Source of the DNA: a virus
Reading direction: 5' to 3' (one strand)
Virus record (IMG/VR): IMGVR_UViG_3300046780_000177
Location: 1 to 41,478 of that record
DNA length: 41,478 bases
The position numbers and the translations under genes are program-made. Positions 18,566-41,478 of the stretch are shown here, piece after piece; position 1 is the stretch's first letter, and each line of letters starts with the position of its first letter. Under the pieces are notes generated by a model. That model was given only the letters and a program-made list of their open reading frames with translations. It searched no databases and was not told the DNA's origin.

Positions 18566-18909
18566 TGGCGCGCGCGCCACTGGTCGAGCGATTTTGGCGC
18601 AAGGTGCTGATCCCGCTCGACGCGGCCGGCAACCGCGATCCGGTGCCCTGCTGGATCTGGACGGGCGCGAAAACGCGCGGCGTCGCGGTCTACGGGCATA
18701 TCCGAGACGGCGCGAAGCACCTGAAGGCGCATCGGGTATCGCTGGCGCTCCACACGGGCACGATGCACGACGATCTAGACGCGGCGCACGGGCCGGACTG
18801 CTCGAAGCTCTGCGTTAATCCGTTCCATCTGTCATGGCAACCCCATCGCGAGAACATGCACGAACAAATCGGACGGCTCGGGCCTATCCGTCAACGCAAA
18901 GCGGCGTAA
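18565..18909 (+). CDS. HNH endonuclease, GVNPFHL type
   Basis: 114 residues; ATG shares a base with the preceding TAA. PCWIWTGAKTRG, then YGHI, KAHRVSLALHTG, AAHGPDCSKLCVNPFHLSW and HRENM form the well-known phage HNH_3-like pattern with zinc cysteines. It is the third HNH protein within 2.3 kb. Its last codons contain GTCAACGCAAA (18890-18900), part of the operator array for the next gene. Confidence 0.86.
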   Translation: MARAPLVERFWRKVLIPLDAAGNRDPVPCWIWTGAKTRGVAVYGHIRDGAKHLKAHRVSLALHTGTMHDDLDAAHGPDCSKLCVNPFHLSWQPHRENMHEQIGRLGPIRQRKAA

Positions 18910-21481: not shown

Positions 21482-21985
21482 ATGACACCTCGGCAAGTTC
21501 GATTCGTTCAGGAGTACGTCAAGGACTGCAACGGGACGCAGGCGGCGATCCGGGCTGGCTACAGCGAGAACGGCGCGCATGTGGCTGGGCAGCGGATGCT
21601 GCGGAATGTTGCCGTCAAGGCGGCGATCGCGGAACGCCAGGCCGTGATCGCGGAGAAGGCGGAATTGTCGGCCGTTCGCGTGCTCGAGGAGCTCCGTCGG
21701 CTCGCGATGGCGGATCTCCTGTCTTGCTTCGACGAGCACGGGCACTTGAAGCCGCTGAAGGACATTCCCGCGGACGCGCGCGCGGCGATCGCGTCGGTGA
21801 AGGTGACAAAGCAGAACCTCACAACCGGCGACGGGATCGTTGATGACGTGATCGAGATCAAGCTGTGGAACAAAAATCAGGCGCTCGATACGCTCGCGAA
21901 GCATTTAGGGTTACTGGTCGAGAAGGTCGAGCACAACGGGGCGATCGAGCTCGTGTGGCGGGATACAGAGGCGCCTCAGGCATGA
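21482..21985 (+). CDS. Terminase small subunit
   Basis: 167 residues. MTPRQVRFVQEYVKDCNGTQ, AAIRAGYSENGAHVAGQRML, then VAVKAAI is the helix-turn-helix start of the Terminase_2 family, which recognises the packaging site. A helical oligomerisation part follows (VRVLEELRRLAMADLLSCFD) and a C-terminal beta tail (VEHNGAIELVWRDTEAPQA) that typically contacts the large subunit. That tail is duplicated 302 bp downstream at the end of the next ORF. It begins the late packaging/head transcript. Confidence 0.88.
   Translation: MTPRQVRFVQEYVKDCNGTQAAIRAGYSENGAHVAGQRMLRNVAVKAAIAERQAVIAEKAELSAVRVLEELRRLAMADLLSCFDEHGHLKPLKDIPADARAAIASVKVTKQNLTTGDGIVDDVIEIKLWNKNQALDTLAKHLGLLVEKVEHNGAIELVWRDTEAPQA
21926..21985 (+). 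repeat. 60-bp duplication, copy 1 (3' end of terminase small subunit)
   Basis: This segment and 22228-22287 match at all but about 4 of 60 bases, both ending in GGCATGA, in which the stop of one gene overlaps the start of the next. The repeat encodes the C-terminal tail of the small terminase. Confidence 0.9.
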
Positions 21986-22287
21986 CACTAATCTGGCGAA
22001 TGCTCTGTGCTATAGACATTCACGACTGGCGCGAATTTGGCGATGTGTGGGTTTGCGCGCGATGTCGTTATCGGCGCCGATGGCTAGATTCTGGTTCGTG
22101 GGAGCTCGATATTGTCGATACGCAGTGGCGACAAGATCGCGTAAGAGATCTGTCGTGCGATCTACCGCCCGTCGGCTGGTTTTGCTCGCGGCGCGGCGGT
22201 CACGATGGGCCGTGTGCCGCGCATCCAGTCGAGCATAACGGGGCGATCGAGCTCGTGTGGCGGGATACGGAGGCGCCTGCGGCATGA
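21982..22287 (+). CDS. Inserted zinc-ribbon ORF carrying a duplicated terminase tail
   Basis: 101 residues. The first ~80 are a cysteine-rich unit: MLCAIDIHDWREFGDVWVC, ARCRYRRR, and WFCSRRGGHDGPC. The last 19 (start VEHNGAIELVW) are the C-terminal tail of the small terminase subunit, copied at DNA level from 21926-21985. The insert is less GC-rich than its neighbours. It therefore looks like a gene that entered behind terS by recombination, with the terS end duplicated. Whether the tail lets this protein bind the large terminase is an open and interesting question. Confidence 0.72.
   Translation: MTLIWRMLCAIDIHDWREFGDVWVCARCRYRRRWLDSGSWELDIVDTQWRQDRVRDLSCDLPPVGWFCSRRGGHDGPCAAHPVEHNGAIELVWRDTEAPAA
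22228..22287 (+). repeat. 60-bp duplication, copy 2
   Basis: Second copy of 21926-21985 at an offset of 302 bp, in the same frame of its own ORF. One of the differences is silent-type (CAC/CAT) and another is ACA/ACG, consistent with selection on the protein. Confidence 0.9.
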
Positions 22288-22547
22288 TCGACCATCAACA
22301 TAATTTCTCGCATTGGAACGTCCTTACGCGGTCGTGGGTGTGCTCGTGCGGCGCGGTGGTCACAGAGCAGGCGGCGGAGCTCGGCCGGCGCGACGTGGTC
22401 AGCGATCGGCAGTCCGGTATCTCGCTGCGCTTTATTCGCGAATGGCCGGCGGCAGACGGGCGGCCGATCTTGGTTGGGCATCTCTCGAGTGATGGCAAGT
22501 TCCGGCGCTCCTGGCGCGCGTCGTTCCTGGCCGGCGGCTGCGAGTGA
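22284..22547 (+). CDS. Small hypothetical protein between terminase genes
   Basis: 87 residues; ATG overlaps the previous stop, and the end overlaps the large terminase start (GTGA). Start MIDHQHNFSHWNVLTRSWVC, then SCGAVVT: a His/Cys-rich N-terminus that may be half a zinc ribbon, similar in style to the previous inserted ORF. Part of the same accessory insertion in the terminase locus. Confidence 0.55.
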   Translation: MIDHQHNFSHWNVLTRSWVCSCGAVVTEQAAELGRRDVVSDRQSGISLRFIREWPAADGRPILVGHLSSDGKFRRSWRASFLAGGCE

Positions 22548-23971
22548 GCGAGCCTCGGCAGCGGATCGAGATCCCGTATGCGCCTCGCCGCTGGGCGAAG
22601 CTGCTGCACGGTTCGTTCAAGCGCTGGTCGGCGCTCGTGCTCCATCGGCGCGCCGGCAAAACAACGGCGATCCTGAACCATCATCAACGGTCGGCCACGG
22701 ATAACCGCTGGGAGCTCGCCCGGCTGCGGTATCTGCTGCCGGATGCGGACGAGTCACACCTCCGGCCGTTGCTCAATCGGCGCGTGTACTGGCACGTCAT
22801 GCCCACGTTGAAGCAGGCGAAGCTCGTTGCCTGGGATCTGCTGAAGGAAATCGCCCGGCCGATTCCAGGCGCGAAGCCAAATAACTCGGATCTGGCCGTG
22901 ATCTATCCGGGCGGGAACCGACTCCAGCTAATCGGGGCCGACGATCCGGATTCGCTCCGCGGGCCGGCGCTCTCGGGCCTGTCGCTCGACGAATACTCGC
23001 AGATTCCCGGCCATGCATTCGGCGAGGTGCTCTCAAAGGCGCTCGGCGATCACCTGGGCTATTGCATTTGGGCCGGCACGATCAAAGGCAAGGATCAGCT
23101 GTTCAAGATTCACGAGGCCGCACAGGGCGATCCGGCCTGGTTCGCGGTCTGGCAGGACATCGACACGTCCCTGGCGACGGAGAGCGGGCCGACGATCACG
23201 GCGTTACGTCGCGCGATGGACGACGATCGCGAGCTCGTGCGCCAGGGCGTCATGACGCAAGCTGAATTCGATCAGGAGTGGTATTTGTCTACGGACGCAG
23301 CGATTAAGGGGGCGTTTTACCTCGAGCAGATCAGCGCGGCGCGGAAGGACGGGCGGATCTGCCGGGTGCCGTACGATCCGGCGCTCCCGGTCGATACCGA
23401 CTGGGATCTTGGGATCGACGATCTCCTGACGATTTGGTTCTCGCAAACGCTGCGCTCAGGCGAAGTGCGGTTGATCGACTACCTCGAGACAGCCGACAAA
23501 GGGATCCCACAGATTGCCGGCGAGGTGCGCGCCAAGCCGTACGTCTACGGGACACATTGGGGGCCGCATGACATCGTAGTTCGCGAGCTCGGCACGGGAA
23601 AAAGCCGGCTCGAGGTCGCGCGCGAGCATGGGCTCGTGTTCAAGCCGACTCCACGGATCCACGGCGAGGCCGGCCTCGAGGTCGCGGAAGGGATCAAGGC
23701 GGTACGGCTGCTACTGGCGCGGTGTTGGTTCGATACGGAGAAGTGCGCGCGCGGGATCGAGACGCTCAGCCACTACCGATCGGCGTTCAATAAGCAGTTA
23801 GGCCAGTATACGGGCGTCCCGGTGCATGACTGGGCCTCGCACGGGGCTGATTCGTTTCGCGGGCTGGCGGTGCGGCTGAAGCTGCCGGCGAAGAAAAAGC
23901 CGCGCGGCGAGGATGAGGACGGGTTCCCGCGGCAACCGGCCGGCGGCGGCCGGGCGTCGTGGATGCGGTGA
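22544..23971 (+). CDS. Terminase large subunit
   Basis: 475 residues from GTG 22544. ATPase: Walker A is LVLHRRAGKTTAIL (34-41) and Walker B is LSGLSLDEYSQI (D150-E151), with the coupling motif in WAGTIKGK. Nuclease: PVDTDWDLGIDD (~283) is the first RNase H-like acid cluster; GPHDIVVREL and HDWASHGADSFRGLA supply the others. Length is close to P22 gp2 (499). It packages DNA into the procapsid through the portal. The C-terminal tail is basic and Gly-rich (QPAGGGRASWMR). Confidence 0.93.
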   Translation: MSEPRQRIEIPYAPRRWAKLLHGSFKRWSALVLHRRAGKTTAILNHHQRSATDNRWELARLRYLLPDADESHLRPLLNRRVYWHVMPTLKQAKLVAWDLLKEIARPIPGAKPNNSDLAVIYPGGNRLQLIGADDPDSLRGPALSGLSLDEYSQIPGHAFGEVLSKALGDHLGYCIWAGTIKGKDQLFKIHEAAQGDPAWFAVWQDIDTSLATESGPTITALRRAMDDDRELVRQGVMTQAEFDQEWYLSTDAAIKGAFYLEQISAARKDGRICRVPYDPALPVDTDWDLGIDDLLTIWFSQTLRSGEVRLIDYLETADKGIPQIAGEVRAKPYVYGTHWGPHDIVVRELGTGKSRLEVAREHGLVFKPTPRIHGEAGLEVAEGIKAVRLLLARCWFDTEKCARGIETLSHYRSAFNKQLGQYTGVPVHDWASHGADSFRGLAVRLKLPAKKKPRGEDEDGFPRQPAGGGRASWMR

Positions 23972-37931: not shown

Positions 37932-39463
37932 ACATCGTAACGCGACAACTCGGCGGCGCATGGGCGGACGTCGCGGCGCTCCCTGCCGGCGGGTTCCTTG
38001 TGGCGGTCACGGATGCCGTCGGGCCGGGCAACCTGAACCTCTACGAGCTCCACGGGCCGGCGTATCAGCCGCAGGCGCGGCCGGCGGTCGTGTTGCCGGA
38101 TGGCTGTAGGTTTCTGCGGCTCGCGGTGTCGCCTGCTGGCGACTGGTGCGCGGTCGGTCAGGGTCAGTCGGGCGCGTTCGTCTACGTGGTTAATGGCGTG
38201 GTCCGCTCGATCGGGATCGCGTTCGGGCAGGACGTCGCGGCGGTGCGGTGGTTCGGCGATGCGTTCCGCGCGATCGTGCTGCGATCGAATGTCGCGTATG
38301 ACTCGCTCCGGATCGGCGCGGATGGCTCGTGCACGCTAATCGGGACATTCCCGCTGTCTCCGACATCGCAGGGGTTCCTAGACATGGATCCGACAGGCGC
38401 GCCGATCGAGGTCGATCTCGAGCGGTCGGCGCATTACACGGATGGCGGCTGGCTCATGCTGCCAGACGGCGAAAACGGCCTCTTGGTAGGCCAGTCGGTG
38501 GCGTCGCTTGCGATGCTCGGCCATGCCGACAATGTGACGTTTACCGTGCTGACGGGTGCGGCGTTCGAGCCACACGCGCGGTTCGATCCGATTGCGTCCG
38601 TATGGGCCGCGGTCTGCCGGCCGGGCGCGGTCGTGATTCTCTCGCGGCCGTTCGCGGCGGATCCGGCGCCCGTTCCTGTTCCCGTTCCGACTCCTATTCC
38701 GACTCCCGTTCCTGTTCCGACTCCTGTTCCGGTGCCTGCGCCTATGCCTACTCCGTTCGATCCGACTACCCTGCAAATTGTCGACGGTCCCGCAGATCTG
38801 GCCTCGTGGAGGCAAACGGCCACGATCACGCAAGTGGATTTCTCGACGGGCCGTTTTGTCGTCGATCACTCCGGGCGCGATGCTTGGCCGGATCTGCCGT
38901 TCGGTGATGGCTCCGGCGGGACAGTGCAGTACACGCTCGGCATGGCGTGCTTTGTCGGCGGCCGGTGGGTGGCCTCGCCAGTCGTCCAGTTCTGGAAGGG
39001 CCGCGTTCTCTCGGCCGGTGGCGGCGTCGCGACGATCTCGGCTGATTGGTTCTACGACGGCCGGTGGGGTGCGCTCCAGGGCAATCAACCGCAACCGGGC
39101 GAGCTCGTGTACGTCTTCGTGGTCGCGGGGAACTGCCGCGGGAGTCAAAATCCGCCAACCGGCGACAACCGGCAGCGGAGCGATTTCGCGGCGGTGACGT
39201 GGGGCAAGCAGTACCGTGCGGAGTCTGCGCCTCCCCAACCCGTTCCGACTCCCGATCCGGTTCCGGTGCCTGTTCCCGTTCCAGCGTTCGATCCGTCGGG
39301 TCTTGAGGCCGCGATCGCGGCGCTCCAGTCGCGCGTCGAGGCGCTCGAGCATGCAATTCCCCCTGTGCCGAATCTTTCCGGGTACGCAAAGAAAGGCGAT
39401 GGCGTGACGGTGACGGTTTTCGGTCAGCACATTAAAGGCACGATCGACGGAAAGGCGGCGTGA
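37928..39463 (+). CDS. Large fibre/adsorption protein with PVPTP linkers
   Basis: 511 residues from GTG 37928. Residues ~1-240 have beta-propeller-like repeats (FLVAVTDAVGPGNLNLYEL; LRLAVSPAGDWCAVGQGQSG; AVRWFGDAFRAIVLRS). A rigid Pro/Val/Thr linker (PVPVPVPTPIPTPVPVPTP, ~246-275) joins a second beta domain (~280-445), and a second shorter linker (PVPTPDPVPVPVPVPAF) leads to a coiled coil (LEAAIAALQSRVEALEHAIP) and C-terminal tip. This bead-on-rod design suits an extended adsorption device. The linkers are encoded by imperfect tandem repeats at 38667-38755 and 39236-39288. A 14-mer operator follows directly. Confidence 0.68.
   Translation: MNIVTRQLGGAWADVAALPAGGFLVAVTDAVGPGNLNLYELHGPAYQPQARPAVVLPDGCRFLRLAVSPAGDWCAVGQGQSGAFVYVVNGVVRSIGIAFGQDVAAVRWFGDAFRAIVLRSNVAYDSLRIGADGSCTLIGTFPLSPTSQGFLDMDPTGAPIEVDLERSAHYTDGGWLMLPDGENGLLVGQSVASLAMLGHADNVTFTVLTGAAFEPHARFDPIASVWAAVCRPGAVVILSRPFAADPAPVPVPVPTPIPTPVPVPTPVPVPAPMPTPFDPTTLQIVDGPADLASWRQTATITQVDFSTGRFVVDHSGRDAWPDLPFGDGSGGTVQYTLGMACFVGGRWVASPVVQFWKGRVLSAGGGVATISADWFYDGRWGALQGNQPQPGELVYVFVVAGNCRGSQNPPTGDNRQRSDFAAVTWGKQYRAESAPPQPVPTPDPVPVPVPVPAFDPSGLEAAIAALQSRVEALEHAIPPVPNLSGYAKKGDGVTVTVFGQHIKGTIDGKAA
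38667..38755 (+). repeat. Low-complexity tandem repeats encoding PVPTP linker
   Basis: Repeats of the type CCTGTTCC and CCGACTCC encode Pro-Val-Pro-Thr-Pro units. A second short tract lies at 39236-39288. Such tracts can change length by slippage and so tune linker length. Confidence 0.75.
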
Positions 39464-40350: not shown

Positions 40351-41478
40351 TGGCGCGGTACGCGTCGATGGCGGGCCGGTCGGCTCGAGACATTCAATTC
40401 GAAAACGCGGTGAACTACCGCAAGGAAAAGGCGGACGCGGACGTCCTTAATCCGGGGATGCCCAACGTACTCGTCGATCCGGGGTGGGACGCGTATTACG
40501 GCGGCCTCGAGCGCGCGCAACAGACTGCGGCGGACAACGGGATGTCGTTCCGGGTCCAGTCGGCGGGGCTCGGTGCGCCGGCTCCTGGCGGCGGCGGTCC
40601 CTATTCTCCGGCGGACGCGCAAACGATTGCGGCCAATGAGCGCCTGGGCGCCGACACCGATCGATTCAGGCTCGGGCAGGCGGCGATCGGGCAGGCGGAA
40701 GCGCAAAAGCAGGCGATGATCGACGCGAGCGCAGAGCGCAATCGCGCGGACATTGCGGCGACAAGCGATCGCGCGGCGATCGACAACGCCATGTCGCCCG
40801 CTCGGCCGATCGTGCAGGCGACAGGACGGCCAGGCGATACCCCGACGTTCGCGGACGGCCAGGCGCCGGGCGCTCCAACGCGCGCGCAGATCCTTGCGGC
40901 ATTGCCGGGACACCTACAGCCAAGTGTCGCGGCGTACTTCAATCAGCAGGACGCAGCGTCATTAGCGAACGCCAGCACGGCGGCAAAAGCGAATCTCGAA
41001 AACGCGCAGGCGCAAGCCGCGCGCGCGAAGGCACAAACCGAAGCCGGTACGACGCTTCCTCAGGGCGTGACGGGCGCGGCGGTGCTTCAGGCGCTCCCGC
41101 CGAATACCGCAGGGATCGTGAAGTCGCTCACCGAAGGGCGCATGCCGTTTCCCTCGGCGATGGCGCTGAAAACCCCGTACTGGCAGGGCATTCTGGAGGC
41201 GGCGCAGGCGTACGATCCGTCGTTCGATACCGCGCAGGCGAGCAATAACGCGCGCGTGAAGGTGCGGCAGGATTTCACGTCTGGTAAATCGGCGCAGTCG
41301 ATCAACGCGATCAATACCGCGATCGGACATCTGACGTCGCTCGCGGGGATCGGCGACAAGCTCGATAACTCCTCGGTCGACTGGTACAACTCGCTCAAAA
41401 ATTCCCTGACGCCTGGCGGGACGGATCGCGGCGTCAATCTCAATGACTTCAACACGCTGAAAAACGGCGTCACATCGG
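40350..41478 (+). CDS. Ejection-type virion protein (P22 gp20 position), N-terminal part
   Basis: ATG 40350 overlaps the previous stop (TAATG). The frame is open to the contig end and continues at base 1 of the window to 462, giving 487 residues after removing the 127-bp overlap. Features: FENAVNYRKEKADADVLNPG near the start, an Ala/Gln/Arg-rich coiled coil (RLGQAAIGQAEAQKQAMIDA), and the later block SINAINTAIGHLTSLAGIGD with KLDNSSVDWYNSLKNSLTP, a pattern found in many phage internal proteins. Expected to leave the capsid with the DNA. Function inferred from order and size. Confidence 0.75.
   Translation, partial: MARYASMAGRSARDIQFENAVNYRKEKADADVLNPGMPNVLVDPGWDAYYGGLERAQQTAADNGMSFRVQSAGLGAPAPGGGGPYSPADAQTIAANERLGADTDRFRLGQAAIGQAEAQKQAMIDASAERNRADIAATSDRAAIDNAMSPARPIVQATGRPGDTPTFADGQAPGAPTRAQILAALPGHLQPSVAAYFNQQDAASLANASTAAKANLENAQAQAARAKAQTEAGTTLPQGVTGAAVLQALPPNTAGIVKSLTEGRMPFPSAMALKTPYWQGILEAAQAYDPSFDTAQASNNARVKVRQDFTSGKSAQSINAINTAIGHLTSLAGIGDKLDNSSVDWYNSLKNSLTPGGTDRGVNLNDFNTLKNGVTS
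41352..41478. repeat. Terminal direct repeat (contig overlap), right copy
   Basis: This is an exact copy of bases 1-127. Joining the two gives a 41,351-bp circle and restores one uninterrupted 487-codon gene across the junction. Confidence 0.93.

Follow-up and report, generated by a model that had tools for sequence, protein, structure and literature searches.

The small terminase gene (terS) of the phage analysed here ends in a segment that occurs a second time downstream, as the end of another small gene, X, and recent recombination at this terS-X locus is clear. In the explanation favoured here, X would be a small foreign gene which this recombination inserted directly downstream of terS, its 3' end being fused in frame, at a module boundary, to a duplicate of the terS tail. 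This tail would be a self-contained module for docking on the large terminase (TerL), which the phage group couples to many different protein bodies, and X would dock on TerL beside or instead of TerS, whereby its Cys/His body, likely zinc-binding and perhaps nucleic-acid-binding, would be brought to the packaging motor. Taken as a whole, this explanation is given an even chance of being right. The analysis establishes the duplication, the boundary of the module, the association of the tail with this TerL family and the failure to detect X in relatives, whereas binding of the tail to TerL, production of X, its own binding to TerL and an effect on packaging are four points which we infer.

The genome record and the duplicated segment

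The window, i.e. the whole stretch of DNA that was analysed, is a virus record of 41,478 bases (IMGVR_UViG_3300046780_000177). A perfect direct repeat of 127 bp is found at its two ends (1-127 and 41352-41478), and the record is therefore probably a complete genome. The features of the terminase region are collected in Table 1.

Table 1. Features of the terS-TerL region, in positions of the window
Feature	Position	Strand	Description
terS	21482..21985	+	Intact small terminase subunit of 167 aa, with HTH, helices, beta hairpin and tail
Repeat copy 1	21926..21985	+	VEHNGAIELVWRDTEAPQA (TerS tail) with its stop, and the ATGA junction at which X starts
Shine-Dalgarno-like AGAGG	21967..21971	+	Inside copy 1, before the ATG of X; read from the sequence
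Gene X	21982..22287	+	101 aa; body with Cys/His motifs and second tail VEHNGAIELVWRDTEAPAA
GWFCSRRGGHDGPCAAHP segment of X	22174..22227	+	Ends at the join; common to small proteins of unrelated phages
Repeat copy 2	22228..22287	+	X tail, stop and ATGA start junction of Y
Gene Y	22284..22547	+	87 aa, Cys/His-containing, between X and TerL
TerL	22544..23971	+	Large terminase, 475 aa; phrog_2, E=6e-13

The last 60 bp of terS and the second copy are identical at 56 of 60 positions, at a start-to-start distance of 302, and the identity begins at the first base of the V149 codon and ends with the last base of the stop codon. The repeat is not due to chance, since the next best match to copy 1 in the whole window, on either strand, reaches only 31/60. 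Two of the four changes are synonymous (His and Thr) and the other two fall within one codon, replacing Gln by Ala at tail residue 18, and 18 of the 19 tail residues are identical between TerS and X. The probability of obtaining at most one changed residue from four random changes is about 0.04, a weak figure, as two of the changes share a codon. Both copies close with GGCATGA, the ATGA of which is the start junction of X in copy 1 and of Y in copy 2. A Shine-Dalgarno-like AGAGG/GGAGG, absent from the original prediction, can be read in each copy, 10 nt ahead of the next ATG. Each repeat thus appears to carry three things, namely the TerS tail, its stop and the predicted start signals of the next gene. 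The original prediction of a 60-bp duplication of the terS end, with about four changes and with the GGCATGA junction kept at both copies, is borne out by these comparisons, while its statement that both proteins end in the same 19-residue tail holds with the exception of the Gln to Ala replacement.

The arrangement is present in a single record, and a second record with full X was not found, which would fit an assembly chimera of two related metagenome phages. Such an artefact is nevertheless regarded as very improbable indeed, given that the copies differ at four sites, that the gene overlaps are clean at both of them, and that the record ends in the perfect terminal repeat.

In terS itself, the Terminase_2 domain (PF03592, E=2.7e-37, residues 1-152), the HTH and the position upstream of TerL are those of a small terminase subunit, and a match to PDB entry 3zqp was also obtained (E=4.5e-12). 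An AF2 model of the protein, calculated from 18 sequences (mean pLDDT 87.9), consists of an HTH, helices, a beta hairpin and a helix up to residue 141, whereas residues 142-167 are drawn without secondary structure and the confidence drops to 54. Because the model lacks secondary structure beyond residue 141, the duplicated segment (149-167) is read as the extended, unfolded C-terminal TerS tail only. The start of the repeat at V149 lies past the folded core in the model and coincides with the start of the VEHSG module in relatives.

Elsewhere in the genome, a near-palindrome, TTGCGTCAACGCAA, occurs with its variants on the plus strand at 18886, 18910, 21447, 23975, 25346, 28922 and 39464. Several of these sites are located just upstream of gene starts, one of them about 20-35 bp before terS, and when up to two mismatches are allowed, 14 matches are found on both strands, against 0.37 expected. 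Among the fetched loci, the 13-base core was seen only in the window's own (L001), and the near-palindrome is likely to be a phage-specific promoter or operator. Short CCGACTCCTGTTCC-type repeats are found inside a long ORF at 38667-38752 and 39225-39286.

The body of gene X

The protein encoded by X consists of the body MTLIWRMLCAIDIHDWREFGDVWVCARCRYRRRWLDSGSWELDIVDTQWRQDRVRDLSCDLPPVGWFCSRRGGHDGPCAAHP, followed by the tail, and contains the Cys/His motifs C-x4-H-x10-C-x2-C and C-x5-H-x3-C. No Pfam family was matched, and the matches to PHROG were only weak or of unknown function, such as that of residues 45-83 to phrog_38772 (E=5.7e-4), a family of unknown function. The insert had been described as zinc-rich and lower in GC. 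The former is a reading of the Cys/His motifs, which are indeed present, alone, with no Pfam family to accompany it; the latter is confirmed, with a GC content of 58.7% for the X body compared to 63.9% for the window. The difference is also seen at third codon positions, where GC3 is 0.55 in the X body, 0.81 in the terS body, 0.80 in TerL and 0.70-0.81 in the neighbouring genes compared, and copy 2 (0.75) is native-like, unlike the body that precedes it. The X body shows little codon adaptation. Its GWxCxRxGGHDGPCAA part is also found in small proteins of unrelated phages, and relatives of the GHDGPCAA part occur at loci L029 and L030. Since a different sequence continues after this part in the unrelated phages, X is most likely a coding gene of outside origin whose own C-terminus was replaced at the join.

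Several identities were considered for X. No known TerS body, either Terminase_2 or other, was recognized in it by Pfam or PHROG, and what it shares with the TerS proteins of the same TerL family is the tail. An HNH or homing endonuclease was discarded, as neither a Pfam match nor a His-Asn-His pattern is present and the best PHROG match is phrog_11604 (E=0.08). The terS 3' end, kept in frame, might suggest that terS was once duplicated in full and that X is what remains of the copy after a later replacement of its front, but nothing terS-like is found in X upstream of the 60 bp, and Pfam gives no Terminase_2 match for it; a full duplication was rejected on these grounds, and a remnant of this kind is considered highly unlikely.

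The terS-TerL junction in related phages

A single TerS query returned only two distant loci, and TerL was used as the query instead, yielding 25 and then 74 viral loci, partly the same ones, with TerL proteins up to 77% identical to that of the window; a scan of genome contigs gave one partial locus. A degenerate DNA pattern for VEHNGAIELVW had no match in viral contigs. In 38 of the 53 relatives with a recognised tail-bearing gene, this gene ends no more than 60 nt from TerL, and in 12 of the 53 the gap before TerL exceeds 200 nt. Different ORFs occupy the gap in individual loci, i.e. an HNH-type ORF (L050:2642-3082), two small Cys-rich ORFs (L044:1053-1442) and an ORF which starts MCGHCVKCGTWRPSLHNDH (L075:3680-3970).

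The comparison with relatives, as proposed in the original prediction, did not recover the insert: a search of 44 related records gave no sign of X, although this search had no positive control and many of the records are fragments. Two clear tail-bearing ORFs before TerL were found in no relative, and the sole second match to the tail pattern, a 58-aa ORF at L049, looks like chance. The double-tail arrangement of terS and X is that of a single genome, and the opposite outcome, of both copies being present and deeply diverged in all relatives, was not seen. A second small Cys/His ORF, Y, which had not been mentioned previously, overlaps the start of TerL via GTGA. It has no confirmed relatives; three weak matches in related loci, of 22-47 residues and with E 0.001-0.003, fall within frames of more than 400 aa and were rejected as homologues. 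On a plain reading of the sequences, X and Y appear to have been inserted where terS and TerL are otherwise closely joined, at a junction which occasionally takes up small genes.

The arrangement most likely arose in one out-of-register recombination event, in which either two related phages recombined or integration took place through the tail. The reading whereby the second tail is a by-product of such an event is almost as probable as one in which the tail of X has a function. A crossover would have joined the terS-X of one phage to the terS tail-Y-TerL of a close relative, so that the copies would be the tails of the two parents, and the tail of X would only supply the stop of X together with the ribosome-binding site and ATGA of Y. 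A single step would then account for the repeat as well as for the intact terS, the ATGA junctions at the two copies and the 93% identity. Codon use is foreign in the X body and native in copy 2, and the wide gaps before TerL, with the ORFs of L050 and L044 as examples, are in keeping with it. A random join would be in frame only one third of the time and would rarely coincide with the beginning of the tail module, and X retains nearly all of the tail residues, yet these objections are not strong, since they concern one event. The by-product is thus a serious candidate, to which somewhat less than an even chance is assigned. The start signals of the next gene, carried within the repeat, could alone explain why the join was tolerated, and too little time may have passed since the event for the X tail to have been kept by selection, as the little codon adaptation of the X body suggests. 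Recombination between the two copies would delete X cleanly, leaving terS-Y.

The tail as a module linked to the TerL family

The gene before TerL in relatives typically ends in VEHSG-x-I-x-I-x-W and a few further residues. A fixed tail pattern was matched by an ORF near TerL in 48 of 70 loci, compared to 37 of 1268 other plus-strand ORFs. Within the aligned 18-member TerS class, G153 and W159 are invariant. When the tails were removed, the bodies fell by blastp (1e-3) into clusters of 25, 17, 3, 3 and 3 members and several singletons, and their Pfam families also differ, including PF03592, PF20901, HTH_Tnp_1_2 and weak LexA-like and Fis-like matches. A 12-column tail profile was built from Terminase_2-class tails only, with the window excluded, and of 34 tails on other bodies, 19 fell below the 1% level set by 2789 control ORFs. 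The top scores (L063 20.6, L070 18.2, L033 17.1 and L058 16.3) are far above the highest control, 8.5, and the tail of X, at 11.88, also exceeds all of the controls. Since the genes for this test had in part been chosen by eye for the tail, the count of 48 in 70 loci is the safer figure. Other genes with the same tail, which had been proposed as a further check, are thus found across unrelated bodies before TerL.

The two halves of the tail seem to follow different partners. Among cultured phages whose TerL is a distant member of the family, three unrelated genes before TerL end in NIVIQW (OH), PIQYTW (Mvi-Yong1342-1) and TIAFKW (P26218), while those of the cultured phages HTVC010P and Venkman are without such an ending. 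The terminal W tail is missing, on the other hand, from TerS proteins of the Terminase_2 class that are encoded next to other TerLs (FP_Lugh, Mx4, BR153a, Pony and phiKX1), some of which retain EHSG. EHSG alone was rejected as the TerL-specific part, as the TerS of Pony, which stands beside another TerL, has KIEHSGEITHN without the W tail. Because unrelated genes before TerL carry the W ending and Terminase_2 TerS proteins beside other TerLs do not, the phi-x-phi-x-W half would appear to go with TerL, and the EHSG half partly with the Terminase_2 body. These patterns argue for a tail that is a module tied to TerL. In addition to the body swaps at the tail, the DNA-binding front seems to be exchanged in TerS relatives as well: at six loci (L007, L018, L038, L051, L052 and L065), of which L018, L051 and L052 among others fall within the window's own TerS class, a Cys/His module of the type C..C..A...GG..C..HGG stands in place of the N-terminal HTH.

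Proposed docking on TerL and comparison with known systems

In phage P22, residues 140-162 of TerS bind residues 1-58 of TerL, and lambda TerS likewise binds TerL through its C-terminal region (PMC9611059). The TerS of the gene transfer agent (GTA) of Rhodobacter is conserved mainly at its TerL-binding C-terminus (PMC6854486). On account of its linkage to TerL, and by analogy with the C-terminal binding published for these three systems, the tail is very likely a TerL-docking peptide in the present family. According to the original prediction, X may also compete for the terminase or modify it. A read-through of the natural TerS-stop-TerL frame from L057, modelled by AF2 with 69 sequences, gave TerL mostly above 90 and the tail at 45-64, drawn as a helix; no docking is visible in this model, for which only pLDDT was returned and the paired depth was five rows.

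A short C-terminal segment is needed for TerL binding in P22 gp3 (140-162), lambda gpNu1 and Rhodobacter GTA gp1, and in the GTA family this segment is conserved while the remaining TerS diverges. The candidate docking segment here differs from these in being a phi-x-phi-x-W tail and in its presence on two proteins, one of which, X, is not TerS-like. A second small protein which helps choose what TerL packages is known from the satellites, where SaPI TerS with Ppi, and PICI Rpp, redirect packaging (PMC6739421). Yet Rpp and Ppi are satellite genes whose products bind the phage TerS and not TerL, while X belongs to the phage itself, its gene lying among the packaging genes between terS and TerL, and has only the tail in common with TerS. 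HNH and homing endonucleases are also inserted beside terminase genes, as the ORF in the gap of L050 illustrates, but X lacks the HNH catalytic motif and bears the TerS tail at its end. An unusual extra DNA-binding module on a Terminase_2 protein is known from Samaravirus, where an FtsK_gamma domain has been added to TerS (PMC8190038); there the module is fused to the N-terminus of one protein, whereas here the tail is copied onto a separate one. TerL-binding tails, mosaic terminase genes and inserts beside the terminase are already known, and no report of a tail copied onto a second, non-TerS protein was found among the open-licence papers searched.

Significance

The binding mode of TerS and TerL is poorly resolved in most phages. 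The present TerL family offers a natural experiment, in which unrelated TerS bodies share one short Trp-containing tail, thereby naming the residues to test, and this genome adds a second protein bearing the same tail. A more general proposition can be put forward tentatively, with clearly less than an even chance of holding: the tail would be a transferable docking tag for the motor, any small protein joined to it would gain access to TerL, phages of this group would obtain new motor accessories or new small terminases when they swap or copy bodies at this point, and X would have been caught just after such copying, with the tail of TerS retained. If X does dock on TerL, it would show how packaging motors acquire accessory subunits, and how one small terminase can take the place of another whose body is unrelated.
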